A stretch of DNA of 64,000 nt from Oleispira antarctica RB-8. Its GTDB lineage: Bacteria; Pseudomonadota; Gammaproteobacteria; Pseudomonadales; Oceanobacteraceae. A model generated the notes under the pieces. It made no database searches. It worked only from the letters and a program-made list of their open reading frames with translations, and had not been told where the DNA came from. Position numbers and translations under genes: made by a program. Shown here one piece after another: positions 23,764-57,705 of the stretch. How positions within the stretch are numbered: the stretch's first letter is position 1; each line of letters opens with the position of its first letter. The DNA is taken from positions 3,123,350-3,187,349 of the forward strand of contig FO203512.1 of assembly GCA_000967895.1 (NCBI GenBank). Reading direction: 5' to 3'.

Positions 23764-23766
23764 GCC

Positions 23767-23861
23767 TGAACGCCTCACTAAGAGGCAAAAAATAGTTGGT
23801 TAAAATAAGCGACGCAGGAGCAAAAACCAACTGTTTTTTGTCCTTTTGAGTGACTTGTTAT
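23767..23861 (-). repeat. attC site G
   Basis: Starts TGAACGCC and ends CTTGTTATG. Arms AAAAAATAGTTGGTT and AACCAACTGTTTTTT pair around a terminal loop. It follows the 258-aa cassette gene; the IS1182 end lies three bases from its GCGTTA-type edge. Confidence 0.85.
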
Positions 23862-23867
23862 GTGCAT

Positions 23868-24680: not shown

Positions 24681-24716
24681 TTAACGCCAATGACTGATTA
24701 TGCACATAACGCCAAT
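24681..24716 (-). repeat. duplicated attC edge TAACGCCAAT
   Basis: TAACGCCAAT occurs at 24682-24691 and again at 24707-24716, 25 bases apart, at the edge of attC F. The outer copy has no stem of its own and may be a relic of an earlier cassette. Confidence 0.5.
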
Positions 24717-24782
24717 ATAATGGGCGCGCGGCTTTTTGCGCGTCCAGCCAGATTTGCTGGCGGTCATTGATATTTTTGTTAC
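24706..24782 (-). repeat. attC site F
   Basis: ATAACGCC at one end and TTTTTGTTACG at the other, with an internal GCGCGCGGCTTTTTGCGCGTCC hairpin part and a CCAGCCAGATTTGCTGG stem. Resembles attC B. Follows the 134-aa membrane protein cassette. Confidence 0.85.
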
Positions 24783-24786
24783 GTTT

Positions 24787-25191: not shown

Positions 25192-25209
25192 ATATTTCCT
25201 AAGCAAACG

Positions 25210-25308
25210 TAACGCTCGGCTCACCGAGCAAATTTTTGTTGGCGGCTTTTGTGCGTATTTTGCACAAACGGTGACAGCGGAAATTTGTCCGGTGTAGTCG
25301 TTTGTTAG
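25210..25308 (-). repeat. attC site E
   Basis: GTAACGCT to TTTGTTAGC, 99 bases, with arms CACCGAGCAAATTT and AAATTTGTCCGGTG that pair apart from extrahelical bases. Follows the Sel1-repeat cassette. Confidence 0.87.
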
Positions 25309-25311
25309 CTC

Positions 25312-26013: not shown

Positions 26014-26036
26014 ATGTTGATATTCCCTCAGAGAGC

Positions 26037-26090
26037 TAACGCTTAAAGCATGGGCGCAGCTTTTTCGCGTCCAATGCCTTTACTTGTTAT
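26037..26090 (-). repeat. attC site D
   Basis: CTAACGCTT to TACTTGTTAT. Arms AAAGCATGGGCGC and GCGTCCAATGCCTTT pair with extrahelical bases. Twin of attC J at the array end, indicating a duplicated or shared cassette family. Confidence 0.9.
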
Positions 26091-26334
26091 GTGATTTTCG
26101 CCAGTAAAAATAGCTGAAAATCACAATTGATTGGATAAACAAGGAAAATACTATCGATACATCATACCATCGATTATAAATGCCTTCAGGGTTGGTCCCC
26201 ATAACTCCAGTAAGCTCCACTAAAGCCAAAGGCCAAACAACCAAATTGAGAGCAATCATCCCTAAGCCTGAAAAAGTCAGCACCAATAAAATTAATACTG
26301 GCAAGATAATCGATAAACCTAAAAATTTAATCAT
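26080..26334 (-). CDS. cassette-encoded membrane protein, 84 aa
   Basis: Two or three hydrophobic segments (about 5-40 and 60-77), ending YWRKSHNK. The stop codon lies inside the attC D stem, a common cassette economy. ATG 26334 is 8 bases from attC C. No family recognised. Confidence 0.6.
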   Translation of the reverse strand: MIKFLGLSIILPVLILLVLTFSGLGMIALNLVVWPLALVELTGVMGTNPEGIYNRWYDVSIVFSLFIQSIVIFSYFYWRKSHNK

Positions 26335-26341
26335 TATTCAC

Positions 26342-26394
26342 ATAACGCCAAAAGCAAACGCCGCGTTAGCGGTCGATTTGCCTTGTCTTGTTAT
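26342..26394 (-). repeat. attC site C (short)
   Basis: ATAACGCC to GTCTTGTTATG, 53 bases. Arms AAAGCAAACGCCGC-type and GCGGTCGATTTGCCTT pair imperfectly. Its GTTA core supplies the TAA stop of the upstream cassette gene. Confidence 0.87.
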
Positions 26395-27077
26395 GTTTTT
26401 TTATTGTTGTGATCAATAGCCATTTTTCGAGTTCTCTCATAAATACCACTCTCAGAGTCTGAAAACATGTGCCTGTGTATTGATGACCACACTATTTTTC
26501 CAGACTTTAGCAAAAAGCTAATTTTTGCGCTCTCAATATATAAGTAGAGCGAAATACAAAATATTGTTATTTGAATCCATAAGGAATGATAAAAGCTAAG
26601 CTCCCCTTTAGATGCCTCAAGTAACACTATCGTTGATAATGTAAGAAAGATTACAGCCATTGACATAATCATGATGATTGCTTTTTTTCTAATAGGCTTA
26701 TCATCAATTTCATATTTAGTCATGAATGCTAGTCGTAGAATGGCAATTACGACTAGAGGCAAGCCTGTAGCTGCCAGATCTATTCCTGAATTGCTGTACT
26801 GCACTCCATCAAATGTATATATGAATAACAAAAGCGCATAACCACCAAATATACCTGCCAAATCAAAATGTAGGCCGCTATAAAACTCATTCAAAAGCTT
26901 TTGGTTCTTTCCAAGAGCAGACCATATCAAATCAATAGCGATTGCTACAGGATAAGCCCAAAATGCTGCCCCATATATCGATTTCAATGGGGCCCAAAAC
27001 AGCCCGCCACTTAAGACAAGCCATCCCCAGAAGAAACCTAGTAACGAAAATGGAAGTAATAGAAATTTGGCCTTCAA
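26391..27077 (-). CDS. cassette-encoded polytopic membrane protein, 228 aa
   Basis: Six or so membrane helices, starting FLLLPFSLLGFFWGWLVLSGG, with a polar C-terminal tail (RTRKMAIDHNNKKT). The open frame runs back through the upstream attC, but TTG 27077 lies 8 bases after a strong AGGAG, so I take this as the start. The stop TAA is embedded in attC C. No recognised family. Confidence 0.65.
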   Translation of the reverse strand: MKAKFLLLPFSLLGFFWGWLVLSGGLFWAPLKSIYGAAFWAYPVAIAIDLIWSALGKNQKLLNEFYSGLHFDLAGIFGGYALLLFIYTFDGVQYSNSGIDLAATGLPLVVIAILRLAFMTKYEIDDKPIRKKAIIMIMSMAVIFLTLSTIVLLEASKGELSFYHSLWIQITIFCISLYLYIESAKISFLLKSGKIVWSSIHRHMFSDSESGIYERTRKMAIDHNNKKT

Positions 27078-27095
27078 TTTATACTCCTGAAAACA

Positions 27096-27175
27096 TAACG
27101 CCAAAAATAAAGGGCGCGCGCTTTTTGCGAGTCCAAGCCACGTCTTTTTGTGGCTGCCTTTCATTGTCTTGTTAC
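27096..27175 (-). repeat. attC site B
   Basis: TAACGCC to GTCTTGTTAC with an AGCCACGTCTTTTTGTGGCT hairpin and outer AAAGG/CCTTT pairing. Close relative of attC F. Confidence 0.85.
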
Positions 27176-27392
27176 TTGCTACTCTAATTCGATGTTTCTT
27201 TAATCAAAGATTGGCAAGTTAAATAATGCAGGAAGAGTACTTCGGAGGGTTTCTGTTATTTATAAAGAAACCAATTTGAACAACTTCCATGCTGTTTGTG
27301 GCTGGTAAATTCTCAGCCGAACTAATACCTGCAGTTTACAGGATGATCATTCATATTGCTAAAGGCTTACTTATCAAAAACACTTAAGCCAA
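27176..27392 (-). other. integron cassette without a convincing gene
   Basis: 217 bases between attC B and attC A. The longest minus-strand frame from ATG is 23 codons (MEVVQIGFFINN...), and neither strand shows a supported gene. ORF-less cassettes are known in chromosomal integrons and may carry promoters or small RNAs; none is evident here. Confidence 0.6.
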
Positions 27393-27492
27393 GTAACGCT
27401 GAGCTCACGAGTTGACGAAAGTGGCAGTTCTTTTGCGTTTTTTTGCAAAAGAAGTGACGCTTTTGGCAATCTGAGTGCAGCGACTTGTTAGC
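27393..27492 (-). repeat. attC site A (integrase-proximal)
   Basis: GTAACGCT to GACTTGTTAGC, 100 bases. It contains TTCTTTTGCG...TGCAAAAGAA, a near-perfect inner stem. Its core overlaps the stop codon of the cytochrome b-like gene. Confidence 0.87.
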
Positions 27493-28063
27493 TGTTTTTC
27501 TTAGACTTTGAATGGAGGTAAATATGCAATATTCCCATGCAGCCATGGCCAATAATATATGCCTGAATTAATCCTGTAAGAAACTCGTGTATCTCTTTAA
27601 TATCATGAGACCATGACAAATTAGCGTTCCAAGCTATAAACCAGGTTAACCCAGAAAGAATCACTAGGAATAAAGCTCCTAACCCCAACCCCTGAATTAT
27701 AGCCGCTATGCCATAGGCATTTGGCTCAGGCAACTTAAATTTCAATAGTTGATTTATATCATTTTTTAGTTGTTCAACTTCACCCGAAAGATAAGGGAAA
27801 TAATATTTGAAACCATGCTGCTTCAATTCAATAATTATAAAAACAAAAGCTATTGGGATAATAAAAAGACCGGTTAATATATGAAGCCAAGTACCGTAGA
27901 ACTCAATTGTATTAGGGCTTATATCTCCAGCACTGGTAAACCCCATAAAATTACTAACGATTATTTGACTTATTACTAAAATAATAATTGTTATATGAAG
28001 GTATCTGACCATTGGTAATTGGCGTTCCCGCAGGTACTCCATAATTTTTTTAAAAATATTCAT
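27488..28063 (-). CDS. cytochrome b561-like membrane protein
   Basis: 191 residues with four helices (about 18-38, 57-80, 118-142, 155-185). Histidines at the membrane faces (RYLHITIII, TWLHILTG, IHEFLTG, GHGCMGILHIYLH) match prokaryotic cytochrome b561/hydrogenase cytochrome b proteins, which bind two b hemes and pass electrons across the membrane. Stops inside attC A. No attC separates it from the VIT gene 43 bases upstream, so the two probably travel or are transcribed together. Confidence 0.75.
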   Translation of the reverse strand: MNIFKKIMEYLRERQLPMVRYLHITIIILVISQIIVSNFMGFTSAGDISPNTIEFYGTWLHILTGLFIIPIAFVFIIIELKQHGFKYYFPYLSGEVEQLKNDINQLLKFKLPEPNAYGIAAIIQGLGLGALFLVILSGLTWFIAWNANLSWSHDIKEIHEFLTGLIQAYIIGHGCMGILHIYLHSKSKKNS

Positions 28064-28106
28064 TCAACGCTCCAACAATGTATAATTAATAATTTAAAAG
28101 GTGATA

Positions 28107-28796
28107 TTAAGCAGCTACGCCAAATAATATACCCACTCCAGCCGTAAGTGCCATTGCTAGAGCTCCCCAAAACGTAACTCTCATAGCACCAACTGAAATT
28201 GGTGCGCCACCCGCACGCGCGGCTATACCACCAAGTAGGGCAAGAAATATCAACGAAGATAAAACAACGACAGGAATGAGATAATTTTCTGGAACTAACA
28301 AAGCAAGCATTAAAGGTAGTGCAGCTCCAATCGTAAATGTACCTGCTGATGAAAATGCGGCTTGAACAGGTTTAGCATTACCAGTATCAGAAATACCTAT
28401 TTCATCTCTTGCGTGCGCACCAAGAGCATCATGAGCCATTAATTGACCTGCTACTTGTTGCGCTAATTCAGAATCTACACCTCTAGCTTCATATATTTTT
28501 GCTAGTTCGTTTTTTTCAAATTCGTAATTTTGTTCTAATGAATTTTTCTCAAGCGCCAAATCTGCATTCTCAGTATCTGACTGCGAACTAACTGATACGT
28601 ACTCCCCCGCAGCCATCGACATAGCGCCCGCAACCAGTCCAGCGATACCTGCTAGCATTATCCCTTCGTGTGAAGTGCTAGCTGCGGCCACACCAATAAT
28701 AAGGCTTGCCGTCGAAACGATTCCATCGTTTGCTCCTAGCACCGCAGCGCGCAACCAGCCAACGCGGTGAGATTTATGTATTTCTTGATGACTCAT
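28107..28796 (-). CDS. VIT1/CCC1 family transporter
   Basis: 229 residues. The N-terminal VIT signature GWLRAAVLGANDGIVSTASLI, a cytosolic helical metal-binding region (Glu-rich, LEKNSLEQNYEFEKNELAKIYEARGV, about 80-120) and three C-terminal helices are present. Family members move Fe(II) or Mn(II) out of the cytosol. Start at ATG 28796 behind GAGGAAT. Lies between a small unknown gene and the cytochrome b-like gene without attC sites. Confidence 0.88.
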   Translation of the reverse strand: MSHQEIHKSHRVGWLRAAVLGANDGIVSTASLIIGVAAASTSHEGIMLAGIAGLVAGAMSMAAGEYVSVSSQSDTENADLALEKNSLEQNYEFEKNELAKIYEARGVDSELAQQVAGQLMAHDALGAHARDEIGISDTGNAKPVQAAFSSAGTFTIGAALPLMLALLVPENYLIPVVVLSSLIFLALLGGIAARAGGAPISVGAMRVTFWGALAMALTAGVGILFGVAA

Positions 28797-28818
28797 AATA
28801 TTCCTCAATATTCGATAC

Positions 28819-29061
28819 TTATGCTGAATTTACAGCTAACAGCTTAATCATGCGCATGCGCGTTTGCACGGAAGTGACTTTTAGAGACTTCACGGCAACT
28901 GATTGATTTAACTCGGTAATTTTTAAAGTCCATTTCCAAGCTCCAGGTAAACGCGCATGCGCGTTTTCAAAAATAACGAGGGTCTCGTTATCCCAGTGTA
29001 TTAATTTATAATTCATTGATTTTGCTACATTTTCAAGAACTCCGCCAGTGCAAACGCGCAT
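28819..29061 (-). CDS. possible small protein at the head of the array, 80 aa
   Basis: The open frame runs from 29091; ATG 29061 has GGAGAG about 10 bases upstream. The product (MRVCTGGVLENVAKS...) is mixed beta-rich with no signal peptide. It contains three GCGCATGCGC-type palindromes within its coding sequence, so it could be a real cassette gene or a regulatory stretch with a chance frame. Ends 22 bases before the VIT start. Confidence 0.4.
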   Translation of the reverse strand: MRVCTGGVLENVAKSMNYKLIHWDNETLVIFENAHARLPGAWKWTLKITELNQSVAVKSLKVTSVQTRMRMIKLLAVNSA

Positions 29062-29067
29062 GTTTAC
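28849..29067. repeat. three GCGCATGCGC palindromes
   Basis: A perfect 18-base palindrome AAACGCGCATGCGCGTTT sits at 28949-28966. Shorter versions lie near 28849-28866 (ATGCGCATGCGCGTTTGC) and 29050-29067 (GCAAACGCGCATGTTTAC), about 100 bases apart. They are strikingly G+C-rich in an A+T-rich array. Confidence 0.85.
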
Positions 29068-29115
29068 AAAACTCTCCGTGCAACTGCGCAAAAAACGACC
29101 TATTATTACAATATA

Positions 29116-29135
29116 AGCTGTATATAAAACCAGTG
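29116..29135 (+). promoter_or_regulatory. LexA (SOS) box upstream of intI
   Basis: AGCTGTATATAAAACCAGTG fits CTG-N10-CAG, the gammaproteobacterial LexA operator, 45 bases before the integrase start and among A+T-rich sequence that could provide the -10. SOS control of integron integrases by such boxes is established for other integrons. Confidence 0.82.
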
Positions 29136-29179
29136 TTTTAAATCACAGTTATTAGTGCTTTTAATAAAGGTATTAGTGT

Positions 29180-30145
29180 ATGTCTAAAAGTCCATTTCTC
29201 AATTCTATTCGTCAAAATATACGCATGCGAGGCTATAGTATGCGTACAGAAAAAACGTATCTCTACTGGATTCGTGATTACATTCGATTCCATCGTCTTC
29301 AACATCCAAAAGATCTTACAGGAGAACATGTAGTTGCTTTTCTTTCTTATTTAGCTAATCGACGAGATGTCGCTGTTAATACTCAAAGGACTGCTTTAAA
29401 TGCTTTGGCTTTTTTATATAACCAATTTTTAAACCAACCTCTCGGGGATTTGGGGTTCACTTATGCAAAGCGTCAGCGTCGTCTGCCTATTGTTCTCACG
29501 ATGCAAGAAGTTCAATTAATTCTGGACAATCTATCAGGCAGAGATAAGATAATTTTTTCTATTTTATATGGTTCCGGGCTAAGGATAACTGAGTGTTTGA
29601 GATTAAGAGTTAAAGATATCGATTTTCAACATGGGGGAATTACAGTACATGATGGTAAAGGTGGAAAAGACCGGCAAACAATTTTAAGCCCTTCTTTAAC
29701 TGCACCCATTCAGCAGTTAATTGAAAGTGCGATTAGCTTACAGCAGGAAGATAATAAACAAGGGATCGGCCCTTCTTTGCCCCACATGCTGGGTAAGAAA
29801 TACCCCAACGCTTTTCGCCAGCCAGCCTGGATGTTTATTTTTCCTTCCAGTGGTGTTTGTAAGCACCCGGTAACCGAAAAAACTTGTCGCCATCACCTAC
29901 ATGATTCGGTACCGCGCAAAGCATTACAGAAGGCTGTTCAAGCTTGTGGGTTAAACAGAAAAAAGATTAGCTGCCATACTTTCAGGCATTCGTTTGCAAC
30001 TCAGCTTTTACAAAATGGGCGTGATATTCGCACCGTGCAAGAGCTACTTGGACACACCGATGTGGCTACTACTCAGATTTATACCCACGTAATAGGCCAG
30101 CACTTTGCTGGCACCAGTAGCCCACTCGATAATCTTACGCTATAG
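29180..30145 (+). CDS. intI: integron integrase
   Basis: 321-residue tyrosine recombinase. The N-terminal SAM-like core-binding domain (1-95) contains MRTEKTYLYWIRDYIRFH. The catalytic residues are present: Arg in GSGLRITECLRL, HxxR in SCHTFRHSFATQLL, His/Trp-position in LGHTDVATT and Tyr in QIYTHV. The integron-specific extra domain is present (YPNAFRQPAWMFIFPSSG, about 208-226), which separates IntI from XerC/D. Preceded by AAAGG and, further up, a LexA box. It recombines attI and folded single-stranded attC. Intact, so the array may still exchange cassettes. Confidence 0.97.
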   Translation: MSKSPFLNSIRQNIRMRGYSMRTEKTYLYWIRDYIRFHRLQHPKDLTGEHVVAFLSYLANRRDVAVNTQRTALNALAFLYNQFLNQPLGDLGFTYAKRQRRLPIVLTMQEVQLILDNLSGRDKIIFSILYGSGLRITECLRLRVKDIDFQHGGITVHDGKGGKDRQTILSPSLTAPIQQLIESAISLQQEDNKQGIGPSLPHMLGKKYPNAFRQPAWMFIFPSSGVCKHPVTEKTCRHHLHDSVPRKALQKAVQACGLNRKKISCHTFRHSFATQLLQNGRDIRTVQELLGHTDVATTQIYTHVIGQHFAGTSSPLDNLTL

Positions 30146-56523: not shown

Positions 56524-57603
56524 CTACGACTCAGCTTTATCTTTAGAATCTTTAACTTTTTCAGCTTTTTCTGGTTTGTCTGCTTTCTCAGCCTTTTCAG
56601 CATCTTCTGGTAATTGGCTAGTCATTAATTGCGAACGAATTTCTTTTTCTATCTCTTCAGCAATCGCTGGATTATCTGATAAGAATTTTGCTGCGTTAGC
56701 TTTACCTTGACCTATTTTATCGCCCTTATACGCATACCAAGCACCTGATTTATCAATCAAGTCGCACTTAACACCCAAGTCAACGACCTCACCCATGTGG
56801 TAAATACCTTCACCATATAGGATTTGGAATTCAGCCTGTCTGAAAGGAGGCGCTACTTTATTTTTAACAACTTTAACGCGAGTTTCGTTACCTGTTACTT
56901 CATCGCCCTGCTTCACCGCACCTGTACGACGAATGTCCAAGCGTACTGAAGAATAAAACTTCAGAGCATTACCACCGGTTGTGGTTTCAGGATTACCAAA
57001 CATCACACCAATTTTCATACGAATTTGGTTGATGAAAATCACCAAGCAATTAGCATTTTTAACGTTGGCCGTCATTTTTCGTAATGCTTGAGACATTAAA
57101 CGAGCCTGTAGACCAACATGGTGATCACCCATATCGCCTTCAATTTCAGCCTTAGGTGTTAACGCTGCAACCGAGTCAATCACGATCACATCAACCGCGC
57201 CTGAACGAACTAAGCTATCGGTAATTTCCAAACCTTGCTCACCCGTATCAGGTTGAGACACTAACAAAGTATCGAGATTTACACCCAATTTTTCAGCATA
57301 TAAAGGATCAAGTGCGTGCTCAGCATCAACAATAGCAACGGTCTTACCTTGCTTTTGTGCTTGAGCCATAACAGACAAACAAAGTGTTGTTTTACCCGAG
57401 CTTTCTGGACCATAAATTTCAACGATACGGCCATAAGGTAAACCGCCTATGCCTAACGCAACATCCAGAGTTAAAGAACCGGTAGATACCGACGGAATTG
57501 CTTCACGCGGCTGGTCACCCATTTTCATAATGGAGCCTTTACCGAATTGACGCTCAATCTGGCTTAGTGCAGCATCGAGTGCTTTTTGCTTATTTGCATC
57601 CAT
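56524..57603 (-). CDS. recA: recombinase RecA
   Basis: 359 residues. Walker A GPESSGKT, catalytic [20 protein letters not shown], and a C-terminal tail of Glu/Lys/Ala/Asp repeats ([17 protein letters not shown]) that modulates DNA access. Homologous recombination and LexA cleavage. Controlled by the LexA box at 57686-57705. Confidence 0.98.
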
Positions 57604-57685: not shown

Positions 57686-57705
57686 TACTGTAGATTTAAC
57701 CAGTA
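57686..57705 (-). promoter_or_regulatory. LexA (SOS) box and promoter of recA
   Basis: TACTGTAGATTTAACCAGTA fits CTG-N10-CAG with TA flanks. On the minus strand a -35 (TTGGTC, 57728-57733) and -10 (TAAATA, 57704-57709) lie 18 bases apart, so LexA overlaps the -10. This is the usual recA arrangement. Confidence 0.9.

Follow-up and report, generated by a model that had tools for sequence, protein, structure and literature searches.

A candidate LexA operator before the integron integrase gene of Oleispira antarctica, and related attI platforms elsewhere in the genome

Is the integron integrase gene of Oleispira antarctica RB-8 controlled by the SOS response, and what does its promoter region reveal about the integrons of this lineage? 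These questions arise from a 64-kb stretch of the genome, here called the window, in which an SOS box at positions 29116-29135 had initially been annotated as the switch of the integrase gene intI. Control of this kind is well documented in other integrons, as the initial annotation had stated and as is evident from the sections consulted of the survey by Cambray et al. (2011; PMC3108266). According to these sections, LexA boxes precede 56.6% of 1,103 intI sequences and are "clearly prevalent" in marine species. They also describe the SOS mechanism as attested in V. cholerae, V. parahaemolyticus and class 1 integrons; for V. parahaemolyticus, and likewise on a plasmid, LexA control was demonstrated using gel shifts and RT-PCR. 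Oleispira is absent from the main text of that survey, and a literature search combining Oleispira with integrons returned only a match concerned with oil degradation. A LexA box before intI is ordinary in kind and a well-described integron trait, so that the idea itself is not new. The repeated attI platforms described below are the more interesting part of our results and worth the attention of specialists.

The LexA box and the SOS genes of the host

The LexA box, CTGTATATAAAACCAG, occupies window positions 29118-29133 on the forward strand, the annotated span thus extending two bases beyond the true 16-bp box on either side. It is located upstream of intI, as initially noted, but the distance to the ATG at 29180 is 46 bases rather than the 45 given. 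The bare motif carries no evidential weight, because CTG-N10-CAG occurs in the window at chance level (11 observed versus 9.7 expected, with 38 of 100 shuffles reaching 11). This count would suit a chance match to a common motif at a site that LexA leaves unbound. However, we consider such a match very improbable, because the site tops the entire 64 kb when scored with a matrix made without intI or recA. This 16-column matrix was built from the lexA, recN and uvrD boxes of the same genome, with the intI and recA sites excluded. Applied to all positions of the 64 kb, it gave its highest score, 15.2 bits, to the intI site and its second highest, 14.3 bits, to the recA site, with the next position reaching 12.3 bits. 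The case for the site is therefore much stronger than the bare motif could make it. In simulated sequence, the expected number of scores reaching that of the intI site is 0.09 per 64 kb, or about 1e-4 per 100-bp promoter. A wider matrix of six sites gave 0.02 per 64 kb, but we preferred the three-gene matrix, since the sites of topB and a SWIM-family gene, two of the six, had entered the set on account of their match to the motif.

In its architecture, the site follows the 16-bp CTGT-N8-ACAG type found near promoters, except that its right half reads CCAG instead of ACAG. In this right half (ACCAG), one base deviates from the consensus ACAG, but the recA and uvrD boxes of the same genome likewise contain AACCAG. 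The 20-bp E. coli LexA consensus was too strict a criterion and had no match in the window with three mismatches allowed, and CTGT-N9-CAG was discarded as a genome-wide screen, being too loose (329 matches versus 173 in the reversed control). Similarly, a CRP-like site overlapping the box (29132-29147, 8/10) was dropped, as 21 positions in the 64 kb equal it. The hexamer TATAAG (29112-29117, forward strand), directly 5' of the box, may represent the -10 element of the integrase promoter Pint, with no clear -35 element. In relatives (best 80 of 193 loci), a conserved AT-rich block lies at the corresponding place, just ahead of the box. A sigma-70 scan of the window yielded no forward-strand promoter at the scan threshold.

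As expected for a gammaproteobacterial LexA/SOS regulon, the same genome, a single contig of 4,406,383 bases, encodes a compatible repressor. Its single LexA match lies over the cut-off, is intact and of the E. coli type (TIGR00498, 263 bits), and shows an Ala-Gly pair at the expected place, which we take to be the cleavage site. Matching LexA boxes precede lexA, recA, recN and uvrD, with the identities of the LexA, RecA, RecN and UvrD proteins confirmed by NCBIfam. The second LexA box that had been reported in the same window, before recA, is likewise present: CTGTAGATTTAACCAG (57688-57703, reverse strand) is situated 84 bases upstream of recA (56524-57603, reverse strand; TIGR02012, 557.5 bits). 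The SWIM-family gene of the wider matrix, first called yebG, encodes a PBPRA1643-family protein according to NCBIfam, a further reason for replacing that matrix. As a separate observation, a sequence near-identical to the intI box, CTGTATATAAAATCAG (L086:1501-1516), is found 44 bases upstream of the annotated start of a small uncharacterized, lipoprotein-like protein, a possible further SOS gene.

The integron and the conservation of its LexA box

The gene behind the box (29180-30145, forward strand) encodes an intact integron integrase of 321 amino acids (TIGR02249, 386.9 bits; cut-off 265), which aligns with the solved IntI structure 2a3v over residues 4-318, through the extra domain specific to integron integrases. 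It is followed by dcd (TIGR02274). To its left, the attI core GTTAGCT, with the crossover point G/TTA, is located at 28834-28840 on the reverse strand, where the conservation among relatives stops: the leader left of intI is conserved in six Oleispira-like sequences to near 28840 and not further. The cassettes run leftwards from attI, whose core is exactly complemented by the R'' site of the first attC. Seven attC sites follow on the reverse strand (attC1, 27391-27493; attC2, 27093-27177; attC3, 26340-26396; attC4, 26034-26092; attC5, 25207-25310; attC6, 24704-24784; attC7, 23765-23863), and in all seven cassettes (7/7) the R'' site exactly complements the core that opens the cassette. Cassette 1 (27391-28839) contains a VIT-family gene (28107-28808, reverse strand; PF01988) and, behind it, a cytochrome b561-type gene (27488-28063, reverse strand; PF01292), with no attC found between the two.

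The region from the attI core to the LexA box at its end (28834-29133) constitutes an attI/leader platform of about 300 bp. It includes a perfectly conserved 19-bp palindrome, ATAACGAGGGTCTCGTTAT (28973-28991), which is letter-perfect in five copies within the genome and in five relatives while its surroundings drift; exact matches number five in the genome and zero for the reversed control. A possible cassette promoter Pc (TTGAAA-17-AATTAT; 29008-29036, reverse strand) was recognized by its consensus match only, the scan for this type of promoter yielding 2 sites versus 1.9 expected. Since the palindrome is situated just downstream of this possible Pc, it may act as an operator or, as RNA, fold into a hairpin where the cassette transcript begins. 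The leader further contains repeats of CATGCGCGTTTGCAC in both orientations (28855-28869, 28945-28970, 29048-29062 and 29075-29090), possibly binding sites for the integrase or an accessory protein.

The box is widely shared by related integrons. Our survey covered the 80 best of 193 loci carrying an intI relative, of which 79 offered enough upstream sequence. Within 250 bp of intI, 58 of these 79 relatives have a strict box, defined as CTG..CAG plus 6 or more of 10 inner matches, compared to 7 of 2109 windows of 250 bp taken from elsewhere in these loci. With a laxer threshold (score of at least 17), the numbers rose to 70/79 and 15/2109, respectively, although these contrasts are approximate because the control windows are mostly coding. 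The recurrence of the box at the same place in 70 of these 79 relatives again argues against a chance match. In the nearest relative of this set (86% IntI identity), the box is identical to that of the window. A AAAATATA-like block directly 5' of the box is common in the same set and would be in keeping with a -10 element that touches the operator, an arrangement reported for Vibrio in the consulted sections of Cambray et al. (PMC3108266). The distance between box and ATG is more commonly 15-35 bases in the relatives, compared to the 46 bases in the window. Among the 71 boxes with a score of at least 17, including that of the window, 60 end in CAG and 11 in CAT (L011, L020, L035, L044, L047, L050, L051, L052, L056, L064 and L068); the CAT ending, always combined with a left half CTG, perhaps reflects a compromise with a promoter element. 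No box was detected within 250 bp of intI in nine of the 79 relatives. These comprise L045 and L066, with only 105 and 133 upstream bases, respectively, L072 and L081, and all five relatives from the Idiomarinaceae (L033, L039, L046, L060 and L061).

Judged from sequence, 29118-29133 is thus, with high confidence, the LexA operator of the intI promoter. LexA/SOS control of intI is very likely, given the matrix rank of the site, the single E. coli-type lexA gene and the presence of the box in 70 of 79 relatives. The central proposal of the initial annotation, an SOS box that controls the integrase, agrees with the intact LexA protein, the boxes of the SOS genes, the near-optimal box, the intact intI gene and its boxed relatives. 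Bound at 29118-29133, LexA would cover the start of the intI promoter and keep integrase levels low. RecA filaments formed on single-stranded DNA would induce LexA self-cleavage and allow intI expression, and the integrase would then move cassettes between attC sites and attI. This arrangement resembles the SOS-controlled intIA gene of Vibrio chromosomal integrons, reportedly described by Guerin in 2009, in that an E. coli-type LexA box lies in the promoter of a chromosomal intI gene and both lexA and recA are intact. It differs in that it belongs to an Oleispira-like lineage and serves seven cassettes here rather than a large array. The suggestion that uptake of single-stranded DNA switches on intI is no more than plausible: the genome encodes a ComEC/Rec2 homolog, and in V. 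cholerae, according to the part consulted of one report, conjugation and transformation both induce IntIA through SOS (PMC8191803).

attI platforms with and without an integrase gene

The whole leader, from the attI core to the LexA box, recurs four times elsewhere in the genome (five matches in a similarity search, 77-100% identity). The five leaders are 81-94% alike, with the 19-bp palindrome unchanged (further copies at 1767720, 1872301, 1995556 and 2414037), and no IntI match was found beside the four additional platforms. Three of them head chained cassettes. At platform 1767881, two of two R'' sites chain exactly, with further attC sites there unchained; at 1872463, all five (5/5) do so; and at 2413904, the first R'' site shows one mismatch and the second is exact. 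These three arrays correspond to CALINs (two or more attC sites with no integrase in the vicinity). At platform 1995423, the core has mutated to GCTA and one attC was seen nearby. The LexA box is degenerate in all four platforms (CTGTATGAATAACCCC, CTGCATAAATAACCGT, CTGTATGTATAGGGCC and CTGTATGTATAGGCAT). The pattern TAACAA-N-GCGTTA is unenriched genome-wide (40 matches versus 41 in the control), and only its clustering beside the platforms is informative. Near-identical attC pairs occur across different arrays (98% and 91%), but they are no proof of exchange because the neighboring genes differ at the 98% pair. At the cfa site, none of four relatives with cfa has a platform, and the insertion borders are unreadable because the gene after cfa differs between relatives.

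Two further genes were noted in the array at 2413.9 kb. The first, in the cassette region of this intI-less platform, encodes a class A beta-lactamase (L154:3685-4557, reverse strand) nearest to the CARB/PSE/RTG group, at 419 bits just below the model cut-off of 430; the second encodes a group II intron reverse transcriptase/maturase (L154:5606-6895, reverse strand). In addition, the genome contains a broken second integron integrase gene (G000:C1:585983-586586; L133) that retains residues 53-183 and 247-318 only. The 5 kb around this remnant contain no CTG-N10-CAG, a weak result given the 0.75 matches expected by chance.

CALINs and their mobilization in trans are already known, as stated in the parts consulted of earlier reports (PMC12444791, PMC9024848, PMC8618304). 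Like CALINs, the further arrays hold attC cassettes without intI. However, whereas CALINs are defined by attC sites alone, these arrays retain a 300-bp attI/leader platform that shares homology, and also its spacing, with the platform of the intact integron. They also resemble the Delta-attI gene cassettes of mobile integrons in having attI sequence away from intI, but those attI pieces, as described in the consulted part of the respective report, end cassettes inside one array (PMC12901181), whereas the leaders found here are whole and head arrays of their own at different chromosomal locations. Our searches of the open-licence literature brought up no paper recognizable as a description of intI-less or multiple attI platforms.

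Platforms of this type are not confined to one genome. Six genomes of the genus contain 23 leader copies (5, 3, 2, 5, 4 and 4), six of which have IntI beside them within the fetched 1.5 kb (L156, L165, L167, L169, L172 and L178; IntI is broken in L172), followed, by eye, by dcd in four cases (L156, L167, L169 and L178). In the family, the leader matches 23 of 44 genomes; outside the genus, the match mostly covers a 30-base stretch adjoining attI, up to four times per genome. The distance between palindrome and box is 138-141 bases in all 18 copies in which both were located. These copies allow a natural comparison: the 300-bp region is found both next to intI and apart from it, and the features retained in each setting indicate how much the LexA box matters. 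A full box is present in all six leaders with IntI, but in only four of 14 readable leaders without it (L162, L163, L164 and L168), corresponding to a one-sided Fisher p of 0.005 if related copies are treated as independent. For one of these four, L164, the contig stops just past a start codon resembling that of intI. L161 is one base short of a full box, nine copies have a box that is not full (L157-L160, L166, L171, L173, L174 and L176), and the position is unreadable in three of the 17 IntI-less leaders (L170, L175 and L177). The full boxes of four IntI-less platforms show that box and intI do not always go together.

The attI cores of these platforms were also compared with the cassettes next to them. 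An exact fit between first cassette and attI core was seen in 10 IntI-less copies (L158, L160-L164, L166, L171, L174 and L177) and in three copies with IntI (L156, L167 and L178), with one mismatch in L169. No fitting first cassette was found within about 1.5 kb at L157, L159, L168 and L176. The sequences of L165, L172 and L173 end too soon for this comparison, and L170 and L175 have no readable attI. These data bear on the idea that the box is real but chiefly serves the leftward transcript from Pc rather than intI. The region is divergent, and the Pc-like site is located about 80 bp left of the box. However, the full box has been lost in nine of the 14 readable intI-less platforms, five of which (L158, L160, L166, L171 and L174) nevertheless have an exactly fitting first cassette, making a main role in cassette transcription very unlikely.

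Two pairwise comparisons illustrate how intI was lost. Past its box, L163 contains the last part of an intI gene and then the same flank as L165, which carries a complete intI (776 aligned bases, 69%). Similarly, L166 joins 40 bases past the end of the L172 intI (386 bases, 79%). In the control, 140 shuffled queries produced 0 matches, and the neighbors in the two comparisons are, by eye, murB and parE. According to these alignments, intI was lost by deletion in both cases, so that at least some intI-less platforms are former complete integrons.

In light of these deletions at a shared site, the four further platforms of the genome may well be dead relics, former integrons that are unserved by the remaining integrase. 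Consistent with this idea, one of their four attI cores is mutated to GCTA, and the cassette insertions cannot be dated relative to the loss of intI. On the other hand, the close similarity of the five leaders, with their unchanged palindrome, and the exact match between first cassette and attI core at 10 intI-less platforms of the genus speak against decay. We therefore tentatively consider it possible that a single SOS-switched IntI serves several attI docks in trans. According to this model, complete integrons multiplied within the genus, and all but one lost first intI, through deletion, and then the box, while the survivor, found beside dcd in four genomes, would insert and move cassettes at all platforms during the SOS response, including the four intI-less ones elsewhere in this chromosome.

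Collectively, the LexA box of O. antarctica extends the known link between DNA damage and integron shuffling to a further lineage. The platforms, in turn, offer an opportunity to test the idea of a distributed integron, whose single stress-controlled enzyme could rearrange cassettes at five sites on the chromosome.
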